From assembly GCA_902785055.1 (NCBI GenBank), contig CACZXG010000002.1, positions 19,232-78,353 on the forward strand: 59,122 bases of DNA, given 5' to 3'. This stretch comes from an uncultured Lachnospiraceae bacterium (GTDB lineage: Bacteria > Bacillota > Clostridia > Lachnospirales > Lachnospiraceae). Both the position numbers and the translations under genes were made by a program. How positions within the stretch are numbered: the first letter of the stretch is position 1; each line of letters starts with the position of its first letter. Below the pieces are notes generated by a model. The model searched no databases. It was given only the letters and a program-made list of their open reading frames with translations, and was not told the DNA's origin. This document shows positions 2,609 to 53,684 of this stretch, piece after piece.

Positions 2609-3268
2609 ATGGAAAAAGATTATCAGAGAGAAGTGGAATTGAACGCGTCAGACTTTGTGCTGGTATCAGACTATGTGCCGGCTGTCATACAGGAGATCCG
2701 CTATCACTCCACTTATAATTTTGTGGGGGACCGGGTCGACGGATATGAGCAGCCCTGCGCGATCCTGACAAAAGAGGCTGCGAGAGCTCTCAAAGAGATC
2801 AGCAACAAATTGAATGTAATGGGGTACCGGATCAAAGTTTTTGACGCTTATCGCCCGGCTACCGCGGTCAGGCACTTTACCCTGTGGGGCGTGGATGATC
2901 TGGACCTGCGCATGAAGCCGTTCTTTTATCCGGATCTGGAGAAGCAGGAACTCTTCAGAAAAGGATATATCGCGAGCAAGTCGAGCCACAGCAGAGGAAG
3001 CACGATCGACCTGACGCTGCTCGATATGAAGACAGGCAAGGAAGTCGATATGGGGAGCCCCTTCGACTATTTCAGCGAGGTTTCTCATCCCGATTATAAA
3101 GGAGTTACGAAGGAACAGTATGAGAACAGGATGTTCCTGCAGGATATGATGGTCCGCGGAGGGTTCGAGCCGTACGACTGCGAGTGGTGGCATTTTACGC
3201 TGAGAGATGAGCCTTATCCGGATACATATTTTGACTTCCCTGTGTCGACGGAAGTACTGAAAAGGTGA
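2609..3268 (+). CDS. ddpX: D-alanyl-D-alanine dipeptidase (M15D, VanX/DdpX family)
   Basis: A 219-residue zinc peptidase that hydrolyses the D-Ala-D-Ala dipeptide. The family signatures are present: DAYRPATAV (substrate-binding arginine), SSHSRGSTIDL (the SxHxxGxxxD zinc motif with His and Asp), and CEWWHF (catalytic Glu and third zinc His). There is no signal peptide, so it is probably cytosolic. No vanH, vanA or vanRS neighbours are present, so a housekeeping peptidoglycan-recycling role is more likely than glycopeptide resistance. Length matches VanX/DdpX (about 200-230). The symbol is given by family similarity only. Confidence 0.85.
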   Translation: MEKDYQREVELNASDFVLVSDYVPAVIQEIRYHSTYNFVGDRVDGYEQPCAILTKEAARALKEISNKLNVMGYRIKVFDAYRPATAVRHFTLWGVDDLDLRMKPFFYPDLEKQELFRKGYIASKSSHSRGSTIDLTLLDMKTGKEVDMGSPFDYFSEVSHPDYKGVTKEQYENRMFLQDMMVRGGFEPYDCEWWHFTLRDEPYPDTYFDFPVSTEVLKR

Positions 3269-4765: not shown

Positions 4766-5902
4766 TTACAGCTTCATGCCTACGCGTACCATGCGGAACA
4801 TGCGGATCGCGCCCTTGTAATAGAGATCCTCTGCGTTGTCCAGAGCCTTGGCAAGCGCCATGGGACCATCGACGGTCGTCATGATGGAGTCGATGCCGTG
4901 CTCGTAGATCTGTTCGTAGCCCTTGCCGAGTCCGCCGCAAAGCGCTGTCACAGGGATGTTGTGCTTTTTCGCGCGGTCGCCTACGCCCTGCATTACTTTG
5001 CCAAAACAGCTCTGCCAGTCAGTTCTTCCCTCACCGGTGACGATCAGGTCCGCATTCTCGATCAGGCTGTCGAAATCGATCAGGTCAAGAACTGTCTCGA
5101 TGCCGGATTTCATCTCAGCGTCCAGGAAGATCTTCAGAGCCGCGCCGAGTCCGCCTGCCGCGCCTGTGCCGGGCGTATCGTCAGGATTGACGCCGAATTC
5201 TCTGATGATCACATCGCGGTAGTGGCACATGCCCTTTTCGAGCTGGTCCAGGATCTCAGGGGTGCCGCCTTTCTGCTTGCCGAAAGTGTAGGTCGCGCCG
5301 TCCTTGCCGCAGAGAGGATTGGTGACGTCGCACATAACTGTGAAATGTGCTTTTTTGACATTCTCGTCGAGGCCGCTCATGTCGATGTGAGCTACTTTCT
5401 CGAGGTCGCTTCCTTTGCCTTCCAGAGCATTTCCGTCCTTATCGAGGAAGCGGATGCCCAGGGCGCTCGCAAAGCCCATGCCGCCGTCATTTGTGGCGGA
5501 GCCGCCGATCGCGATCGAGATATCTGTGAAGCCCGCGTCTACAATGGCCTTCACCAGCTCGCCGGTTCCGTAAGTTGTCGTGTTGAGCGGGTTCCTAAGT
5601 TCTTCGGGAACCATGGGGAGACCGGAGGCCTGCGCCATCTCCAGAACCGCTTCCGTCTCGCTGAGCTTGCCGTAGTAAGCGATCGCGTCTTCCATTAAAG
5701 GTCCGTGAACAGGCACATACACTTTTTTGCCCTTTCTGGCCAGGATCACCGCGTCTGTGGTTCCCTCGCCGCCGTCCGCGACCGGAACGCCGACCGTCTC
5801 GCAGGGGCCGAACACTTCGTGTGCCGCCTTGGTGAGGAATTCTACGGTCTGTTCGCTGCTGACTGTTCCCTTAAAAGAATCTGATGCAAATACAAGTTTC
5901 AT
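4766..5902 (-). CDS. Glycerate kinase (glycerate 2-kinase, GarK/GlxK family)
   Basis: A 378-residue protein of the type-1 glycerate kinase family, which phosphorylates D-glycerate to a phosphoglycerate that enters glycolysis. Signatures include the N-terminal SDSFKGTVSSEQ, VADGGEGTTDA, IGGSATNDGGMGFASALG near the middle, and TGEGRTDWQSCFGKV near the C-terminus. Length matches the family (about 370-390). The ATG follows AAAGGAGGGCAAC. It is followed by a GntP permease and preceded by a CdaR-like regulator, all on the minus strand, so the three probably form an uptake and use module. Confidence 0.93.
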   Translation of the reverse strand: MKLVFASDSFKGTVSSEQTVEFLTKAAHEVFGPCETVGVPVADGGEGTTDAVILARKGKKVYVPVHGPLMEDAIAYYGKLSETEAVLEMAQASGLPMVPEELRNPLNTTTYGTGELVKAIVDAGFTDISIAIGGSATNDGGMGFASALGIRFLDKDGNALEGKGSDLEKVAHIDMSGLDENVKKAHFTVMCDVTNPLCGKDGATYTFGKQKGGTPEILDQLEKGMCHYRDVIIREFGVNPDDTPGTGAAGGLGAALKIFLDAEMKSGIETVLDLIDFDSLIENADLIVTGEGRTDWQSCFGKVMQGVGDRAKKHNIPVTALCGGLGKGYEQIYEHGIDSIMTTVDGPMALAKALDNAEDLYYKGAIRMFRMVRVGMKL

Positions 5903-6078
5903 GTTGCCCTCCTTTTTGTTTTGCTATACCAAATGCCTTTTTTCTCTTTCCGCATTTCATCACTGCCTGTCAAAACAGTGACGACCGCTTTGTTTATTGA
6001 GGTTTTTCGTGATCTCTCTTTGATCTGTATTAAGAATACTGTCAGTGTGTGGATTTTTGTAGATTCGTACACAATAAA

Positions 6079-6123
6079 AAGAACACACGATATTTGTATT
6101 TAAAATACAAAACGTGTGTTCTT
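6079..6123 (-). terminator. Terminator-like palindrome downstream of the CdaR-type regulator
   Basis: An 11-bp inverted repeat, AAGAACACACG with CGTGTGTTCTT, encloses a second near-perfect repeat (TTTGTATT with AATACAAA), giving a 45-nt hairpin. On the minus strand the hairpin is followed by TTCTTTTTATTG, as expected for a terminator of the regulator gene. It lies 177-221 bp upstream of the glycerate kinase start, so an operator role is an alternative. Confidence 0.65.
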
Positions 6124-6149
6124 GAGGACGTATTATTTCTGTGCGGGCT

Positions 6150-7286
6150 CTATTTTGCCAGATAAATGTATAAGAGCTCCATAAATCCTCTGTCCAGCGA
6201 ACGCTCCAGAGGATCTACGCCGAGCATGTCCTTGAATTTGTTGTAGCGGTAGATCAGGGTGTTTTTGTGAATGTAAAGTTTGGCAGCCGACTCGGAGAGA
6301 TTGTAATTGGTTTCCTCAAAGGCCCGCATCATCTCGATGAACTGCTGCTTGCTTTCCTCCGGCATCTGCTGCCCATAGATGATAAAAGCTCTCTGCAGTT
6401 CCTGGCGGGGGATCAGAGTCCGGAAGTATTCCCGGACATAGTCGTTAAAAAAAACGATCTCGTCAGGTTCCCGAAGGTGGGACTCAAGCCATTTGCAATG
6501 GCGGTAAGTGTAATAATACTGAGTGAAGGAGGTTTGGAGCGATCCGACATAGAAGACGGCTCGCGCGCCTTTGTTGTGCAGCCAGTTCCTGATGTGCTCA
6601 AGGTACTCAGTGAGTTCCTCCCTGTAATCGACGAAGTTCTTCCTGCCATTGAGCTTTACCGTCTTGTAGACCAGCAGATGCGTCTCATCCAGAACAGCGC
6701 TGAAGTCCTGGACCCAGTGTCCCTTTCCGCGCCGCAGCTCTTCGAGGGCTTCCTCCGGGCCGGGCAGGTTCGCATTCGCACCTGTGAGACGGCATACGAT
6801 CGAAACCCGGACCAGCGACTCGTCGAGTCCCAACTGCCTTGCGATCCCCCTCAGCTCCGAGGAATCCGCGAACTCCTTCTGTGTCAAAATATTGAGAAAG
6901 TGCTCTTTCCTGTTCCTGCGCAGTCGGATCTCTTCCTGCTGTTTTTCGTAGCGGAGCATGGTCTCCATGGCGAGCCTTGTGATCAGCGCGACTTCGTGGA
7001 TCCTGTCAGGATCACCGGTCACGCCGATGACGCCTTCCTTGCGCCCCTGGTGAGTGATCGCCATATTGATGCCGGGCAGAACGCCGGGGAATTCTTTCTC
7101 ATCCCGGATCACGATCATATCCTGTTCGCCGTGAATGATCCGGTCCGCCACTTCGTGATAAGTGCCGACCCTCGCGGGATCGCGGCTGGCGATGATCACG
7201 CCGTTCTCATTCATGATATTGATGTTGTATTCTGTGTACTGTGTGAGCCGTTCGATGAATTTTCTCGCCAGTTCGGGTTCGATCAT
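6150..7286 (-). CDS. CdaR-type sugar-diacid transcriptional regulator
   Basis: A 378-residue regulator. The N-terminal ~130 residues (from MIEPELARKFIERLTQY) match the sugar-diacid recognition domain, with GVIIASRDPARVGTYHE and GVIGVTGDPDRI. The C-terminus carries a PucR-type helix-turn-helix (LSESAAKLYIHKNTLIYRYNKF). In E. coli CdaR activates glycerate, galactarate and glucarate genes. Position upstream of a glycerate kinase and a GntP permease supports control of that module. The start at 7286 is chosen because AAGGAAGTGTCCC precedes it and the domain begins there; a longer frame to 7457 adds 57 residues without family features. Confidence 0.88.
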   Translation of the reverse strand: MIEPELARKFIERLTQYTEYNINIMNENGVIIASRDPARVGTYHEVADRIIHGEQDMIVIRDEKEFPGVLPGINMAITHQGRKEGVIGVTGDPDRIHEVALITRLAMETMLRYEKQQEEIRLRRNRKEHFLNILTQKEFADSSELRGIARQLGLDESLVRVSIVCRLTGANANLPGPEEALEELRRGKGHWVQDFSAVLDETHLLVYKTVKLNGRKNFVDYREELTEYLEHIRNWLHNKGARAVFYVGSLQTSFTQYYYTYRHCKWLESHLREPDEIVFFNDYVREYFRTLIPRQELQRAFIIYGQQMPEESKQQFIEMMRAFEETNYNLSESAAKLYIHKNTLIYRYNKFKDMLGVDPLERSLDRGFMELLYIYLAK

Positions 7287-9907: not shown

Positions 9908-10050
9908 GAAAGGGGGGAAAATGATAAACAATACTTTCTTCAGGGAGAAATCCTTGAGGGGGGAGTTGATTTCTTTGTTCCCTGTCGATGATTAGATAAT
10001 AAGGGGTAATTATGTTCAATTCGAGGATTTCCTGTGAAGAAACTGTGAAA

Positions 10051-10989
10051 TCATACCGGGAAGAGCATCTGGAACAGAAAGATCATCATCGGGATCGTCA
10101 CAACACACAGGATTGTTGACATAACGTTGTAGATACTTCCCTTCATCGCGTCTTTGCCGCCGAGGACAGCCATTTGGACGATAGAAGCACCGCATGGAGC
10201 ACTGGCACCGATCACGACGACCAGCGCTACGGGCCGCATATCCGGATGGCGCTGCACATAGCCGCTTATATAGAGCAGCAGAATGCAGATCACAGGCAGT
10301 ACGACGAGCCGCAGAAGAGAGATCAGATACGCTTTCTTATATGTAAAGACGCTCTTTAAGTCGCTTCCCGCGATGATCATGCCGATCAGCAGCATGGAGG
10401 AGGCAGCCACCATATCGTGGTAGCCCTTGACAGCTACATCTATGACGCCCGGAAGGCGCAGCTGTGTCACCAGCAGGAAAAGCCCCAGAGCCAGTGCGAT
10501 CAGAGGGGGATTGGTGAGCATTTTTTTGAGCTTGAGCCGCTTTCCGTCCATGAAGATGGAGTAGCAGTGAGTCCAAAGCAGCAGATTAAAGGGAACCTGA
10601 AAAGTGCTGCCGTAGAAGACCATTTCATCTCCGAGCGACATACTGATCAGAGGAAGGATCAGGTTGCCCACATTTGCGTAGGTGAGAGCGGCCCGGTCGA
10701 CGGGATCCAGATTCCAGACCTTTTGGAAAAGCTTCGCGAAAAGAATGCAGAAGAGCATCGAGATCGAAGAAGCTGCTGTTGCGAACAAAAATCCCTGCAT
10801 TCGGTCGGGAGTCAGCTCGATCTGAAGGGAGCGAAGGATCATACAGGGCTGGATCACAAACAGCAAAAGGGCTGATATGACCCGGCTGTCCTCCTGTTTG
10901 AGAGTTCCCAGCTTAACCAATGCGTATCCGACTATGGCCATCAGCGCCATGGAGATGAGTTTGTTCAATAATACGAGACTGAATTCCAT
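10051..10989 (-). CDS. AEC family transporter (auxin efflux carrier type)
   Basis: A 312-residue membrane protein with about ten hydrophobic segments. It matches the AEC permease layout: an N-terminal LMAIVGYALVKLGTL segment, NVGNLILPLISMSLGD in the first half, and the C-terminal GASAPCGASIVQMAVLGGKD. Bacterial AEC proteins often move organic acids such as malate; the substrate is not evident here. It lies 42 bp downstream of rlmH on the same strand, so it is likely co-transcribed. No strong Shine-Dalgarno is visible before the start. Confidence 0.85.
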   Translation of the reverse strand: MEFSLVLLNKLISMALMAIVGYALVKLGTLKQEDSRVISALLLFVIQPCMILRSLQIELTPDRMQGFLFATAASSISMLFCILFAKLFQKVWNLDPVDRAALTYANVGNLILPLISMSLGDEMVFYGSTFQVPFNLLLWTHCYSIFMDGKRLKLKKMLTNPPLIALALGLFLLVTQLRLPGVIDVAVKGYHDMVAASSMLLIGMIIAGSDLKSVFTYKKAYLISLLRLVVLPVICILLLYISGYVQRHPDMRPVALVVVIGASAPCGASIVQMAVLGGKDAMKGSIYNVMSTILCVVTIPMMIFLFQMLFPV

Positions 10990-15774: not shown

Positions 15775-15835
15775 ATATGCTGTGTTCCTTACCGTGACCT
15801 GGTGTGGAGACCGTCCTTTCAGAAATTCTTATTGA

Positions 15836-16272
15836 ATCGATGGAGCGATATGTATCTTAAGAGAAAAGACTCCATCGAACTTTAGAACATTAGAAAATGG
15901 ATGGATGGTAAAATACCGGTCCTGCATGAACTCTACATCCACTCTGGCTTGCTGCCAAAATCCGATGGGGCCTGAAACGACAGTCTGACACAACTTCTAC
16001 ATCTATTTCGGGCTTGCCGCCATATCCGTTGGATTGCGAAAGCTACTATCTCCATCCTTTTTTTGATTCAGCTTAATCCGATGACACAGTTCACTTAAAA
16101 TGCAAAAACAGGCTACATCCATATCTCAGTTTAATTAAATCCGATGGTGCAGTTCACCTAAAATGCAAAAATAGGCTACATCCATATCTTAGTTCAAACA
16201 AATCCGATGGTACGTTTCACTATAATACCAGAATAGGGCCCATCCAATAACACGTATCGCTTAATCCGATGG
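15836..16272 (+). repeat. Degenerate array of about 63-bp units (array 1, eight units)
   Basis: A gene-free stretch between the hydrolase and the NYN gene. ATCCGATGG or a close variant begins at 15836, 15897, 15960, 16024, 16076, 16139, 16202 and 16264: spacings 61, 63, 64, 52, 63, 63 and 62. In the better units a TACATCC-type box starts 25-26 bp earlier (15934, 15998, 16114, 16177; CATCC in the last). The DNA between boxes is largely unlike from unit to unit, except units 4 and 5. All units have the same orientation. The same boxes, geometry and period occur in the array at 51251-51668. Stops interrupt every frame, so it is not coding. Function unknown. Confidence 0.75.
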
Positions 16273-32283: not shown

Positions 32284-32961
32284 ATGGCAGAAGCTGAAAA
32301 CAGAATGAATGAACAGCCCGGCACCGAACCCGAAGAGATCATGGACGAGACTGCGGAAGAGATTACAGACGAGACTGCGGAAGAGACTACAGACGAAACT
32401 GCGGAAGAGACCATGGACGAGACCGGGACTGAGGAAGCCGCGGAGGAGACGCCTGATGCGGAGAGCAATGCAGAGGAATCTGCTGAAGAACCTGAACCGC
32501 AGGCACCTGCCGGAAGCAGGGAGAAAGCGCTTCAGGATAAGGTGGCCGCTCTTGAGGACAAGGTTAAGCGCCAGATGGCGGAGTTCGACAACTTCCGCAA
32601 GCGCACGGCCAAGGAAAAAGAGCAGATGTTCTCCATGGGCGAGAAGAACGTGATCGAGAAGATGCTTCCCGTAGTGGACAACTTCGAGAGAGGCCTGGCG
32701 GCGGTTCCCGAGAATGAGAAGGGCAGCGCGATCGTCAGTGGCATGGAGATGGTCTACAAGCAGTTGATGAAGCAGCTGGAAGATTTGGGAGTAAAGCCCA
32801 TTGAGGCGGTCGGCAAGGAATTTGACCCCGGCTTCCACAACGCGGTGATGCAGGTTGAGAGCGACGAGTTTGAGACAGGCATTGTGGCGCAGGAATTCCA
32901 GAAGGGCTATACATACCATGATATGGTGGTCCGCCACTCAATGGTGGGCGTTGTCCGCTGA
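32284..32961 (+). CDS. grpE: Nucleotide exchange factor GrpE
   Basis: A 225-residue co-chaperone that drives ADP release from DnaK. The N-terminal ~75 residues are a disordered, acidic tail containing an eight-residue DETAEExx repeat. The coiled-coil dimerisation helix follows (EDKVKRQMAEFDNFRKRTAKEKEQMF) and then the beta-domain (LEDLGVKPIEAVGKEFDPGFHNAVMQVE, GYTYHDMVVRHSMVGVVR). The start at 32284 follows AAAGGAATAT; an upstream frame extension to 32263 lacks a site. Family length is usually 180-220, so the tail is somewhat long. Confidence 0.96.
   Translation: MAEAENRMNEQPGTEPEEIMDETAEEITDETAEETTDETAEETMDETGTEEAAEETPDAESNAEESAEEPEPQAPAGSREKALQDKVAALEDKVKRQMAEFDNFRKRTAKEKEQMFSMGEKNVIEKMLPVVDNFERGLAAVPENEKGSAIVSGMEMVYKQLMKQLEDLGVKPIEAVGKEFDPGFHNAVMQVESDEFETGIVAQEFQKGYTYHDMVVRHSMVGVVR
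32344..32427 (+). repeat. 24-bp tandem repeat inside grpE
   Basis: About three and a half copies of a 24-bp unit encode DETAEEIT, DETAEETT, DETAEETM and a partial DETGTEEA. Copies differ by a few bases. Confidence 0.75.
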
Positions 32962-49476: not shown

Positions 49477-50919
49477 ATGAATTATTCCATTATTCGGAAA
49501 ATACTCGGCGTCGTCATTCAGTTCACCGGGGCTTTTCTGGCGCTTCCGGCCGTCTGCGGCCTGTTCTACGGGGAGAAGCAGGCGATCGTCTACGCGGCCC
49601 TCTCCATCGCCTATTTCGTGATCGGAAGGATCATTTCCGGAATTAAACTGAAAAGCCACGCCTACTACGCAAGGGAAGGCCTTGTGATCGTGGGTATGAG
49701 CTGGATCGTCATCAGTATACTGGGCGCGATCCCTCTGGTGATCACGAAGGACATCCCGAACTTCACGGACGCGCTGTTTGAGACGGTCTCCGGCTTTACG
49801 ACGACGGGATCCAGCATCCTGAGCGATGTCGAAGCCCTGAGCCACACGGGTCTCTTCTGGCGAAGCTTCACTCACTGGGTGGGCGGCATGGGCGTCATCG
49901 TCTTTATCCTTGCCGTGCTCCCTATGACCGGCGGCTACAACATGAACCTCATGCGTGCGGAGAGCCCGGGCCCTACGGTCGGCAAACTGGTCCCGCGCAT
50001 GAAAGACACTGCCAAAATATTGTATTCCATCTATTTCGGGATCACCGTGGCGGAGATCATCGTCCTCGTTATTGTGGGAATGCCGCTGTTTGACGCGCTC
50101 TGCATTTCCTTCGGCAGCGCCGGAACGGGAGGTTTCGGCGTGCGCAATGACAGCTGCGCCGGATATTCCAGTCTGATGCAGAGTATCATCACGGTGTTCA
50201 TCCTCATGTTCGGCGTCAACTTCAACGCTTACTTCTTCATTCTGAGAAGGAAGTTTGATGAAGTCTTCAAGATGAGCGAGCTGAAGGGATATTTTGGCAT
50301 CGTAGCATTCTCGATCATCACGATCACGATCAACGTGCGGAATATGTTCCCTTCACTGTATCAGGCGTTCCATCACTCAGCGTTCCAGGTAGCTTCGATC
50401 ATCACGACCACAGGTTTCGCTACGACGGACTTCGACCGGTGGCCGCAGTACTCCAGGGCGCTGCTGGTACTGATCATGTTTGTAGGCGCCTGCGCAGGCA
50501 GTACAGGCGGCGGTATGAAGGTCTCCCGTATCATGCTTATGTTCAAGACCGTGTACCGCGAGATCCGCAAGTACCTGCATCCCCGCGCGGTGACGAACGT
50601 CACTATGGACGGCAAGACAATGGACAGAAGCACACTGCACAGCGTCAGCGTCTACCTGTCCACATACATGCTGCTGTTCTCGGTGTCAGTACTGGCGATC
50701 ACCCTCTTTGAGAACCTTGACCTCGAGACAGTGTTCACTTCAGTGGCATGTACATTCAACAACATCGGACCCGGCCTTTCCAAGGTCGGCCCGACCTGCA
50801 ACTTCGGATTCATGCAGCCGGTCACCAAGTATATCCTCATGTTCGATATGCTTGCAGGCCGCCTCGAGCTGTATCCCATGCTGATGCTGCTGACACCCGC
50901 TGTGTGGAAGAACGCGTAA
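49477..50919 (+). CDS. trkH: TrkH family potassium transporter
   Basis: A 480-residue membrane protein of the Trk/Ktr superfamily. Four pore loops are visible, such as FETVSGFTTTGSSIL, SFGSAGTGGFGVRNDS, ITTTGFATTDFDRWP and CTFNNIGPGLSKVGP. The GGMKVSRIMLMFKTVYREIRKYLHPRAV loop and the terminal LGRLELYP-type motif (MLAGRLELYPMLMLL) match TrkH. It works with TrkA. Start follows CAGGAGGCGATT. Confidence 0.95.
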   Translation: MNYSIIRKILGVVIQFTGAFLALPAVCGLFYGEKQAIVYAALSIAYFVIGRIISGIKLKSHAYYAREGLVIVGMSWIVISILGAIPLVITKDIPNFTDALFETVSGFTTTGSSILSDVEALSHTGLFWRSFTHWVGGMGVIVFILAVLPMTGGYNMNLMRAESPGPTVGKLVPRMKDTAKILYSIYFGITVAEIIVLVIVGMPLFDALCISFGSAGTGGFGVRNDSCAGYSSLMQSIITVFILMFGVNFNAYFFILRRKFDEVFKMSELKGYFGIVAFSIITITINVRNMFPSLYQAFHHSAFQVASIITTTGFATTDFDRWPQYSRALLVLIMFVGACAGSTGGGMKVSRIMLMFKTVYREIRKYLHPRAVTNVTMDGKTMDRSTLHSVSVYLSTYMLLFSVSVLAITLFENLDLETVFTSVACTFNNIGPGLSKVGPTCNFGFMQPVTKYILMFDMLAGRLELYPMLMLLTPAVWKNA

Positions 50920-51052: not shown

Positions 51053-51094
51053 CATAATTCGTAGCCGACAGATATGTCGTTTACATAGATCCAT

Positions 51095-51167
51095 AGGGCT
51101 ATAGCCAAACGGTAAGGCAGCGGACTCTGACTCCGTCATTTTGAAGGTTCGAATCCTTCTAGCCCTG
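51095..51167 (+). tRNA. tRNA-Gln (anticodon CTG)
   Basis: All arms can be folded: a 7-bp acceptor (AGGGCTA with TAGCCCT), a D arm, an anticodon arm GCGGA-CTCTGAC-TCCGT with anticodon CTG, and a T arm GAAGG-TTCGAAT-CCTTC. G is the discriminator and CCA is not encoded. CTG reads CAG glutamine codons. It stands alone, with its own promoter and terminator. Confidence 0.95.
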
Positions 51168-51174
51168 TTCATTT

Positions 51175-51208
51175 GAGGCTTTCATCTTTCGAGATGGAAG
51201 CCTTTTTT
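51175..51208 (+). terminator. Intrinsic terminator of tRNA-Gln
   Basis: GAGGCTTTCATCT pairs with AGATGGAAGCCTT around a TTCG tetraloop, followed by a T-run. Confidence 0.9.
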
Positions 51209-51250
51209 CATGTCTTTTTCATATCCGGAAGCATGATTGAATGGAAATCA

Positions 51251-51668
51251 TACATCCATCTTCGGTATGAGCCGAATCCGATGGCACGCGAAAAGCTTCT
51301 CTGGCACAAATCATACATCCATCTTCAGTTTGAGCCGAATCCGATGGCACGCGAAAAGCTTCTCTGGCACAAATCATACATCCATCCTCAGTTTGAGCCG
51401 AATCCGATGGCACGCGAAAAGCTGCTCTGGCACAAATCATACATCCATCTTCAGTTTGAGCCGAATCCGATGGCACGCGAAAAGCTTGCCTGGCACAAAT
51501 CATACATCCGTTTTCGACTTCGACCGAATCCGATGGTGCACCTGACAAATATCGCCCAATAGCGCTACACCCATATCAAGCTATATGCCGAATCCGATGG
51601 CACATCCGGCAAGAAGCGCCTCAAAAGGCTACATCCACATCAAACTATATGCTAAATCCGGTGGATAC
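51251..51668 (+). repeat. Regular array of seven 63-bp units (array 2)
   Basis: TACATCC-type boxes start at 51251, 51314, 51377, 51440, 51503, 51566 and 51630: exactly 63 bp apart except for the last step (64). In each unit ATCCGATGG starts 25-26 bp later. Units 1-4 differ by only about two bases each; in units 5-7 the boxes remain while the other bases diverge. Box ends CCATC and GATGG form an inverted pair about 19 bp apart, so each unit can fold. Because 63 is divisible by three, repeated 21-residue frames appear on both strands, but no plausible start exists. The unit also forms array 1 at 15836-16272. Confidence 0.9.
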
Positions 51669-51848
51669 AAATTGCGAACAATGAAAAATCTCCAATTTTG
51701 ACCACAAAAAGTTGTGCACATCTACTAAATAATAAAATAGTATAAATATTTAGTGACAAAATGTTAAATAAATGTTAACATTCTAATTGTAGATGTTACA
51801 ACTCATTGCGAAAATGATTACCGTCATCACAAAAGATCGGAGGAGACT

Positions 51849-53684
51849 ATGAAAAAGCATACCGCTATCGCATTAGTATCGGCCATCGCAATCGCTGCAG
51901 GAACCCTTTCCGCAGTGAATCTGACGAACACATCCCGGGACGCGCAGGAGAGTGCCGTAAGTTCCGGAGAGAGCGCAGGCATTTCTTATGAAGATGCGAT
52001 CGCGGATCTTTATGCGCGCAGCACATCTATTTCAGATCAGGAAATTCTCGATATTGCCCGTAAAATGAAACCTGACTGCAGCGCCGTGACTGATGAGCTC
52101 GGTGAGGCACAGGCCAACAGAATAATTGAGACGCTTTCTGCTTATGAGGAAGAAAAGGCTTCTTATCTGCTCGCCGGTACGGCTGCGGAGGCGGATGACG
52201 CTATTACAGCAGAGTGGGAGAGACAGAGAGATTACACACAGATGGGAATCTCCGGTTCTCAGAAGCTGACAAGGCTGATCCCCGGCTATACGGTAACTTC
52301 CTGTGAGGAGGAGAACGGCAGGGTCCTGGTCGATGTCGACGAGTGGATGACGGAAGGCTATACAGAGGGAGAGCAGGATACAGAAAATGTCTCCGCTTAC
52401 CGCTATTATTACACGGCAGTTCTTGAAGAGAGCGCCGGAGGAAACTGGGAAGTGGTTTCTGTCATTAATACGGACAGGAACTTTGCATGGCTTGAGGACG
52501 CGGAGGTCCAGCAGCAGATGCTCGGGGAATCCGCAGCACAGGCAGGCGCAGACCTGCAGAACAGTATAGAGACCGGCGCAGAAGCTGGCGCAGAGTCCGC
52601 CGCGGACCTTCAGAGCGATAGCGGGATGAAGACCGCAAGCCTTAAGACCTATGGCGACGGCAAGTACTCTTACAATGCTGACAACGCGATCGCGTATGCC
52701 GACAAGTGGGCGACTTCCAGAAATCCCGAGTACAAACAGTATCCCGGAGTGGACTGCTGCAACTTCGTCTCCCAGTGCCTGTATGCGGGCGGAATGCCCA
52801 AGAACAGCGCATGGTATCCCGCGTCCTACGCATGGATCAACTGCAGCGGAGCTATCGACAATTTCAAGAAATACGGCGCATTTATGAGTGCCAATAACGG
52901 CAATGTCCTCAGGGGCAACCCGGTATATTACGACTGGAACAGCAACGGTGTCTATGACCACACAGCGATCTGCGTGGGCAAGAACAGCTCGGGCACTCCG
53001 ATCATCGACGCGCACACCGGAGATCACTATCATGTGACATGGACTCTCGGCAGCAACGGAACAAGAGCTACGATCCAGCTCAGGGGCAACGGCTCCGTAA
53101 GCGGAAGCAGCACAGCGAACGCTTCCGGCGGAAGCTGGAAGAAAGAGAACGGATCCTGGTATTACTATACTGCCGACGGAAGCATGCTGAAGGCAAGTTG
53201 GATCAAGTATCAGAACAATTACTATTATCTCCGCGCCAAGGGCCCCATGGTGACCGGATGGGCGAGAATCGGCGGTTCCTGGTACTACTTCAACGGTGCC
53301 GGTGTCATGAAGACAGGCTGGATCAAGAGCGGCGGCAAGTGGTATTATCTGTCAGACCAGGGCGCTATGAAGACGGGCTGGGTCAAGGTCAGCGGCAGCT
53401 GGTATTATATGGCGGATGACGGACATGCCGTCACCGGATGGAGAGATATCAAGGGAAAGACTTATTACTTTGGCGGCGACTGCAAGATGAAGACCGGACT
53501 TTGCACGATAGACGGGATGAAGTACTATTTTGGCTCCCAGGGACAGATGACCCTCGGATGGATCACAACGGGCGGAAAGAAGTATTTCTTCAGCCCTTCC
53601 GCAGGAGGCAGAGCGGCCACAGGCAGCTGGCAGATCAACGGCAGGACCTATAACTTCAACTCTGAAGGCGTTCTGATCGACTGA
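51849..53684 (+). CDS. Secreted choline-binding protein with an amidase domain
   Basis: A 611-residue secreted protein. A signal peptide (MKKHTAIALVSAIAIAAGTLSA) is followed by a region of about 240 residues with no recognised domain. Residues about 265-415 form an Amidase_6/NlpC-P60-like cysteine peptidase domain, with the probable catalytic Cys in YPGVDCCNFVSQCL and His in GVYDHTAICV. The C-terminal ~190 residues are about nine choline-binding (CW_binding_1) repeats of the type GGSWYYFNGAGVMKTGWIK, which anchor to cell-wall teichoic acid choline or similar. It may remodel the wall at the surface. The ATG follows GGAGGAGACT. Upstream is the 63-bp array and AT-rich DNA. Confidence 0.9.
   Translation: MKKHTAIALVSAIAIAAGTLSAVNLTNTSRDAQESAVSSGESAGISYEDAIADLYARSTSISDQEILDIARKMKPDCSAVTDELGEAQANRIIETLSAYEEEKASYLLAGTAAEADDAITAEWERQRDYTQMGISGSQKLTRLIPGYTVTSCEEENGRVLVDVDEWMTEGYTEGEQDTENVSAYRYYYTAVLEESAGGNWEVVSVINTDRNFAWLEDAEVQQQMLGESAAQAGADLQNSIETGAEAGAESAADLQSDSGMKTASLKTYGDGKYSYNADNAIAYADKWATSRNPEYKQYPGVDCCNFVSQCLYAGGMPKNSAWYPASYAWINCSGAIDNFKKYGAFMSANNGNVLRGNPVYYDWNSNGVYDHTAICVGKNSSGTPIIDAHTGDHYHVTWTLGSNGTRATIQLRGNGSVSGSSTANASGGSWKKENGSWYYYTADGSMLKASWIKYQNNYYYLRAKGPMVTGWARIGGSWYYFNGAGVMKTGWIKSGGKWYYLSDQGAMKTGWVKVSGSWYYMADDGHAVTGWRDIKGKTYYFGGDCKMKTGLCTIDGMKYYFGSQGQMTLGWITTGGKKYFFSPSAGGRAATGSWQINGRTYNFNSEGVLID

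Follow-up and report, generated by a model that had tools for sequence, protein, structure and literature searches.

Two tandem arrays in the window, as we call the whole stretch of 59,122 nucleotides analysed here, belong to a family of repeats (F1) that is spread over intergenic sites of the genome, keeps its paired boxes conserved, spaces its units in steps quantised by the helical turn, recurs as whole arrays at unrelated sites and turns over the units inside them. We read these arrays, with a probability of about 0.5, as an element family like BOX or BIME in which protein dimers on double-stranded DNA would touch along one face of the helix. A sister family (F2) carries different boxes within the same frame.

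Arrays in the window

Array 1 consists of seven two-box units (Table 1), and the 63-bp steps, with a single one of 64 bp, that a sequence-only reading of this DNA had reported were borne out by the unit starts. That reading had also placed TACATCC and, 25–26 bp later, ATCCGATGG in every unit. The spacing was confirmed, with 25 bp between box starts in units 1–5 and 26 bp in units 6–7, but the boxes are not invariant, each being exact in six of the seven units. Upstream lie a terminator-like hairpin, a tRNA-Gln gene and a gene for what we take to be a TrkH-like potassium transporter subunit. The downstream gene starts 185 bp past the array, and its product shows, by eye, a signal-peptide-like start and C-terminal aromatic repeats.

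Array 2, of the same family, and the dispersed family itself had been missed by the earlier reading and were found here. A degenerate two-box pattern with ≤3 mismatches gave 4 matches in the window versus 0.00 expected by shuffling, and 12 of the 14 AATCCGATGG sites (≤1 mismatch) fall inside arrays 1 and 2, with 6.07 expected in the whole window. Across the window's own genome (G000; 3.13 Mb, 87% complete), CATCCA-N12-24-ATCCGATGG matched 51 times, and the reversed control 0 times. The window also holds a tandem 24-bp repeat, probably coding, at 32332–32423.

Table 1. Features of the window (window positions) and large indels in F1 unit steps (sizes in bp, with loci).
Feature	Position	Strand	Remarks
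Array 1	51251–51664	+	unit starts 51251, 51314, 51377, 51440, 51503, 51566, 51630; steps 63 (×5), then 64 (×1)
Box 1 (TACATCC), unit 1	51251–51257	+	later boxes at the unit starts above; TACACCC in unit 6 (51566)
Box 2 (ATCCGATGG), unit 1	51276–51284	+	later units start 51339, 51402, 51465, 51528, 51592, 51656 (ATCCGGTGG, unit 7)
tRNA-Gln (CTG)	51094–51168	+	upstream neighbour of array 1
Terminator-like hairpin	51175–51204	+	between tRNA-Gln and array 1; the region has one, versus 1.0 expected from shuffling
Upstream gene	49477–50919	+	upstream of array 1 and of tRNA-Gln
Downstream gene	51849–53684	+	611 aa
Array 2	15934–16272	+	six units; steps 64, 53, 63, 63, 62
Degenerate units and leader	15812–15904	+	immediately upstream of array 2; a portion accompanies the array elsewhere
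F1 deletions			−10 (array 2 and G033), −12 (L033), −11 (L035/L187), −10 (L036/L190), −11 (L038), −10 (L255/L242), −10 (L262), −9 (L246), −10 (L241), −4 (L188)
F1 insertions			+9 (L199), +9 (L190), +9 (L252), +10 (L256/L268/L249)

A dispersed intergenic family

The window and the stretches of G000 examined contain 16 F1 arrays, all located in non-coding gaps according to a simple codon-usage gene call and variable in their orientation relative to genes. At two array ends there is an overlap, of 3 and 57 bp, with the predicted edge of the adjacent gene, and on one side of two arrays the contig ends. Contig C34 (L037) carries two of the arrays in opposite orientation, at 5741–6526 (+) and 10050–10491 (−), about 3.5 kb apart with genes between them; a matching pair is present in G013 (L194) and in G046 (L188).

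The search of related genomes with a two-box profile, which had been suggested as a check together with a count of arrays, was performed with R1, a profile derived from the sequences of 91 units. F1 was detected in 5 of 62 congeneric genomes, and none of the other 57 gave a match at E 0.001. R1 counts have an upper bound of 81, the number of candidates scored in each genome. The exact pattern, searched in 61 genomes, yielded single matches in four more genomes beyond the F1 carriers. One of these, in the otherwise F2 genome G045, has the form of a short F1 array, two or three units long, and the remaining three look unrelated by eye. Among 299 genomes of the taxonomic family, searched with strict filters and with the best 16 candidates per genome scored, matches were found in G000 and, marginally, in G183 (E 3.9e-5), at a sensitivity low enough that G000 itself returned 22 matches instead of 81. 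F1 may be absent outside the genus, a conclusion that we regard as soft. A box1-box2-box1 pattern was matched by 25 stretches of the named GTDB collection, which all come from four uncultured Lachnospiraceae MAGs (RUG14002, UBA6998, RUG12657 and SRR873608_bin.40). A housekeeping role is disfavoured because the arrays are confined to two small clades.

Quantisation of the unit steps

Steps between F1 units were pooled from 73 arrays of at least two units, fetched from five genomes and comprising 434 units and 361 steps. Each array had at least one unit with ≤1 mismatch, other units were accepted with ≤3 mismatches, and steps of up to 100 bp were allowed. The steps cluster at 51–54 bp (13) and 59–66 bp (341, including 215 of exactly 63 bp) and at 72–73 bp (6), with a stray one of 34 bp, and none of the 361 lies at 55–58 or 67–71 bp. 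The stray step aside, the spacers measure 19–21, 27–34 or 39–41 bp. The unit itself, from box 1 through box 2, has a length of 32 or 33 bp in 430 of the 434 units (29–34 bp allowed). The F2 pool of 13 arrays, with 70 units and 57 steps, gave 22 steps of 63–64 bp and 35 of 73–75 bp, with nothing between, and the step classes of both families (51–54, 59–66 and 72–75 bp) lie one helical turn apart.

At a period of 10.5 bp, the phase concentration reached 0.91 over 296 distinct F1 spacers (best periods 10.5–10.9) and 0.94 over 55 F2 spacers (best periods 10.6–11.0), with 0.59 for the 18 F1 steps outside 61–65 bp. Same-strand steps of a control REP, GACCTCTGGGGT, in the same loci showed no such phasing (0.17 over 83 steps). 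Part of the 63-bp peak stems from tandem duplication, and the independent evidence is a modest number of large indels (Table 1). Thirteen of the 14 F1 indels of ≥4 bp that were left once orthologues had been removed by hand are of 9–12 bp, which has a chance of ~9e-7 under uniform sizes of 4–17 bp; this list leaves out the stray 34-bp step, which occurs in L037 where the last unit is without box 1, and includes L255/L242, L262 and L246, which look alike and may share an origin, deduplication having been performed by eye. When units were restricted to ≤2 mismatches, the gaps at 55–58 and 67–71 bp stayed empty and 12 short and 2 long F1 steps were left; at ≤1 mismatch, 5 short and no long steps were left. 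Of the four long F1 steps that count as independent, three involve a unit carrying 3 mismatches.

The suggestion that the 63-bp period places all boxes on one helix face thus holds for the units, whose steps are quantised in classes of ~10.5–11 bp. Half-sites within one unit are ~27 bp (2.6 turns) apart and, therefore, not on one face, so only the units are in register.

Conservation of the boxes and turnover of the units

Orthologous loci of G000 and the other four F1 carriers were aligned by BLAST, which gave 21 locus pairs; the boxes were aligned in 17 of these. Differing sites amounted to 79/1740 in boxes, 1378/5187 in inner segments and spacers, 694/6719 in flanking intergenic DNA and 1424/18537 in genes. 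Boxes diverged less than inner segments and spacers in 17/17 pairs, with a bias towards intact boxes on the G000 side only, where units had been picked by box similarity. The raw divergence of 26.6% in inner segments and spacers is in part an artefact; hypermutation was rejected as its source, since the pairs are bimodal and unit turnover and shifted alignment account for most of the high values. Unit lists show that the middle units turn over and that the end units are often kept.

In the four pairs with low inner divergence (L033-L191, L034-L186, L035-L187 and L036-L190), 0/308 box sites, 28/927 inner and spacer sites and 70/1124 flanking sites differ. The whole array is closer here than its flank, which makes a recent exchange between species possible, and inner segments and spacers differ less than the flank, so the DNA between boxes is not simply drifting in these arrays. 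The proposal that the boxes are selected and not merely duplicated is supported both by these clean pairs and by the overall counts, and box conservation, which might have vanished once related arrays were aligned, persists throughout.

Recurrence of whole arrays and the tRNA-Gln site

In G000, the nearest relative of a unit in another array tends to occupy the corresponding relative position (r 0.68 over 112 units; at most 0.39 in 2000 permutations). Among the 61 arrays of at least four units, the first unit begins with TCCATC in 43 (vs 85/345 later units) and the last ends with GATGGA in 43 (vs 71/344 earlier units), which makes the array ends mirror-like. Arrays of the array-2 type were found in four unrelated contexts, namely G000 C2 with G033 C17, G003 C56 with G046 C142, G003 C94, where only the right side is on the contig, and G045 C5; a more distant relative in G000 C21 adds a fifth. 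The leader is common to five of the seven copies, and the longest match between contexts, in stretches of 1.5 to 3.5 kb, spans 91 to 379 bp in and just beside the array. By eye, no target-site duplication was seen at these contexts, and no transposase was recognised from the first residues of the neighbouring gene products.

The position of array 1 after a tRNA gene had been taken as a possible trace of old integration, a link that does not extend to the rest of the family: for the other 15 arrays in G000, no tRNA lies in the stretch that contains the array or, in the case of array 2, close by in the window. The window contains one tRNA, and the 13 stretches carrying the 14 arrays outside it contain 0. 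The tRNA as an integration site was rejected, since array 1 is the only one of the 16 with a tRNA nearby. In relatives, the tRNA-Gln site has no array in G003, a different array in G013, a remnant in G046 and other DNA in G033. In G013 (C13, L086), a 12/24-bp repeat and a 30-bp repeat, ACAAGTTCAACAAAGCTAAACCAGTCTCAA, at 2407–2509 and 2900–3008, flank the F1 array at this site. In G024, a genome without F1 or F2 matches, the contig with the tRNA-Gln site (C46, L183 4178–4603) carries two adjacent 62-bp tandem arrays of 2.3 and 3.9 copies; 62 is not a multiple of three, and these arrays are possibly another member of the phased-array class. Terminators were found in 2/15 upstream flanks of G000 arrays, one array beginning at a contig edge, and in 4/16 downstream flanks, versus 9/320 random windows, an enrichment that is suggestive only.

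A sister family with different boxes

At the tRNA-Gln site of G045 and G054, which have no R1 match, we found tandem arrays with the boxes CTACGAAATG and ATTCGTCGGT, which define F2. They have in common with F1 a 32-bp unit, a box 1 that opens with CTAC and the presence of CTTGCCTGGC in the spacer. Searching with a profile built from 17 F2 units gave 27 matches in G045 and 35 in G054, and none in the other 60 of the 62 genomes, F1 carriers included. The boxes are inverted in both families and, read outward, are GGATGTAG and CCGATGGT in F1, and TTTCGTAGGG and ATTCGTCGGT in F2. Comparison of 15 F2 loci with 34 F1 stretches revealed two sites where F1 genomes carry F1 arrays: the tRNA-Gln site, in both F2 genomes, and the site of G054 C20 and G033 C67, where G054 has ~3 kb extra on one side. 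This suggests that ancestral arrays had their boxes replaced between the F1 and F2 clades, although two sites could also be favoured insertion places.

Proposed mechanism and alternatives

In the model that we propose, each unit is a pair of inverted half-sites, rigidly 32–33 bp across, and units repeat at whole helical turns. A putative sequence-specific protein would occupy each unit of the double-stranded DNA as a dimer, and adjacent complexes would touch along one helix face, so the spacing could change only by a full turn. Whole arrays would be copied to new intergenic sites, and inside an array units are gained and lost, with the end units tending to persist. The purpose may be nucleoid organisation, regulation or the element's own spread. 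A dimeric protein bound to double-stranded DNA is favoured because of the rigid unit spacing, a freedom between units that is mostly one of whole turns, the conserved inverted boxes and the different boxes in sister clades. Box complementarity would equally serve a hairpin and is not decisive alone, but the quantised spacing favours DNA. A more far-reaching version, which we put forward tentatively and rather doubt, envisages chromosome-wide mobile operator arrays phased by the helix. The putative protein would sit on 5–13 in-register dyads in each of ~15 intergenic regions of a genome. The sequence that it recognises would have switched between clades (GATG-type vs CGT-type), with nearly all arrays following in concert and the unit geometry fixed.

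The arrays might instead be a purely selfish element, like BOX or MITEs, with the boxes as transposase or recombinase sites, the phasing as that of a synaptic complex and no gain for the host. The unrelated contexts of the array-2 type (one of the four in an F2 genome, with the distant relative at the fifth), the unit order common between arrays, the short inverted repeats at array ends and a presence that varies by species, down to the vacant tRNA-Gln site of G003, are all in keeping with this. No autonomous copy, recognisable transposase neighbour or target-site duplication was seen, however, the latter two as judged by eye, and conserved boxes run throughout the units and not just at the ends, which leaves this explanation unlikely, if far from negligible. 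RAYT (TnpA-REP) transposases mobilising REP/BIME arrays are a quite improbable source. Box 1 does carry CTAC (GTAG on the other strand), and GTAG tags one REP super-family in the portions of a REP survey consulted (PMC3733652). RAYT-like genes, that is, Y1_Tnp matches in ORFs of roughly 200–330 aa given this name on resemblance alone, are present in each of the five F1 genomes and in the two F2 genomes, but many non-carriers have them as well. Moreover, the typical first unit (TCCATC) lacks GTAG. The 20 RAYT-like loci fetched, which are not all of those in the carriers, have isolated F1 matches (≤2 mismatches) but no F1 array in their vicinity, and the four such loci of the F2 genomes have no F2 array, only one isolated match (≤3 mismatches). 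A different repeat, GACCTCTGGGGTAG, flanks the RAYT-like genes on contigs C32 and C38 of G000. RAYT-REP was rejected as the mover because each RAYT-like gene examined either is accompanied by a repeat of its own or has no array of boxes in its neighbourhood. At the two G000 loci (L137, C32:7000–12500; L138, C38:3000–9000), the genes (~250 aa) lie between repeats around GACCTCTGGGGTAGTTTG that occur in both orientations, and they constitute an apparent RAYT-REP system in Lachnospiraceae; Firmicutes is mentioned 0 times in the text of the REP survey (PMC3733652). A further genome of 4.3 Mb (G358) has 37 Y1_Tnp (PF01797) matches, several with identical scores, likely an IS200-like expansion.

An RNA element of transcribed tandem hairpins, in which box 1 pairs with box 2, appears improbable. 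Segments from box 1 through box 2 fold below the shuffle mean in 95/120 (plus strand) and 99/120 (minus) of the F1 units sampled and in 54/62 (plus) and 38/62 (minus) F2 units. In the hairpin between the boxes 70.4% of cells pair, a value reached in 2/500 shuffles and above all slid versions, and complementarity is kept in F1 and F2 boxes alike. With the boxes fixed, however, the real inner sequence gives a lower folding energy than its shuffled versions in just 63/109 and 67/109 F1 and 9/16 and 7/16 F2 representatives, and this small inner effect means that the folding energy is explained mostly by the boxes. RNAalifold found no pair on 91 units. Two-sided pair changes, the compensatory changes proposed earlier as a check of the paired box ends, are no commoner than in shuffles, of which 459/500 and 186/500 reach the observed values; box-end association is absent within the unit (P 0.62) and to the next unit (P 0.44), and weak for GATGTA alone (P 0.04). 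The terminator-like hairpin between tRNA-Gln and array 1 also argues against transcribed hairpins, and helical quantisation would be unexpected for RNA loops. The RNA stem entertained in the sequence-only reading is thus a weak candidate, given no consensus fold, limited covariation and a small inner-hairpin effect. A guide array of CRISPR or TIGR type, with two alternating repeats and two variable segments per unit, would account for the alternation of short repeats with variable inner segments and spacers, and for end units that are often conserved around a middle that turns over. It is nonetheless very improbable: a Nop-domain gene was found in 0/7 carrier genomes searched (control genomes, from archaea, match in 4/14), and the inner segments of 16–18 bp and spacers of ~20, 31 or 42 bp exceed the 9 nt given as the rule in the accessible part of the TIGR report (PMC12045711). 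TIGR-Tas was rejected on these two grounds. Many spacers are visibly related, aligning with each other, which agrees with the earlier statement that this is not a CRISPR array. Decayed protein-coding repeats of 21 codons can practically be dismissed. Although 63 is a multiple of three and some frames stay open for >100 codons, the three codon phases have equal column entropy (1.02, 1.12 and 1.06 over 63 units), the longest open frame differs in frame between arrays, and steps of 62, 64, 52 and 74 break any frame; coding repeats were rejected for lack of a phase effect and of shared frames.

Comparison with known systems

Bacterial interspersed repeats are usually explained by hairpins and transposases. 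In the arrays described here, the constraint that shows best is the geometry of double-stranded DNA, as box sequence and helical register are kept and other parts vary, and two sister clades have different boxes in one frame, all of which points to a protein. Rfam matched only the tRNA in the whole window and nothing in 51150–51850 at E up to 1, and no title or abstract opening among the papers listed from the openly licensed PubMed Central literature describes this repeat; within these two sources, the earlier impression of no known repeat class stands.

In the parts of the BOX report consulted (PMC3049150), the BOX elements of Streptococcus pneumoniae are likewise intergenic and dispersed, with distinct start and end modules and variable tandem middle modules that differ in number between genomes. 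In our arrays, too, the first and last modules are distinctive and enclose middle ones whose number varies; the likeness is one of architecture, not of compared sequence, and they differ from BOX in their two-box units, helix-quantised steps and lack of a stable consensus RNA fold. BIME/REP elements with RAYT are, in the survey portions consulted (PMC3733652), interspersed palindromic repeats clustered outside genes with CTAC/GTAG beside the palindrome, the REPs being palindromes of 20–40 bp and often inverted dimers. By eye, CTAC opens most internal box 1 sequences of F1 and F2, but it overlaps the palindrome and is missing from the typical first unit, and our units run head to tail at 63 bp, away from RAYT-like genes, which carry another repeat. 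TIGR arrays resemble ours in having two alternating short repeats and two kinds of spacer but, in the part of the report consulted (PMC12045711), have spacers of ~9 nt and 36-nt guide RNAs; here the segments are longer, the spacers are related and not foreign, and no Nop protein was found. Terminal inverted repeats as in MITEs are present (TCCATC/GATGGA, 43/61 arrays each) but are of only 6 bp. In plasmid iterons and other in-phase operator arrays, repeated binding sites are spaced by whole helical turns. Unlike iterons, the present arrays are dispersed over many chromosomal loci, and no replication gene was recognised by eye beside them. We file the arrays as a new variant of interspersed modular repeats, a member of neither BOX nor BIME, which provides a natural series for watching array copying and unit turnover.
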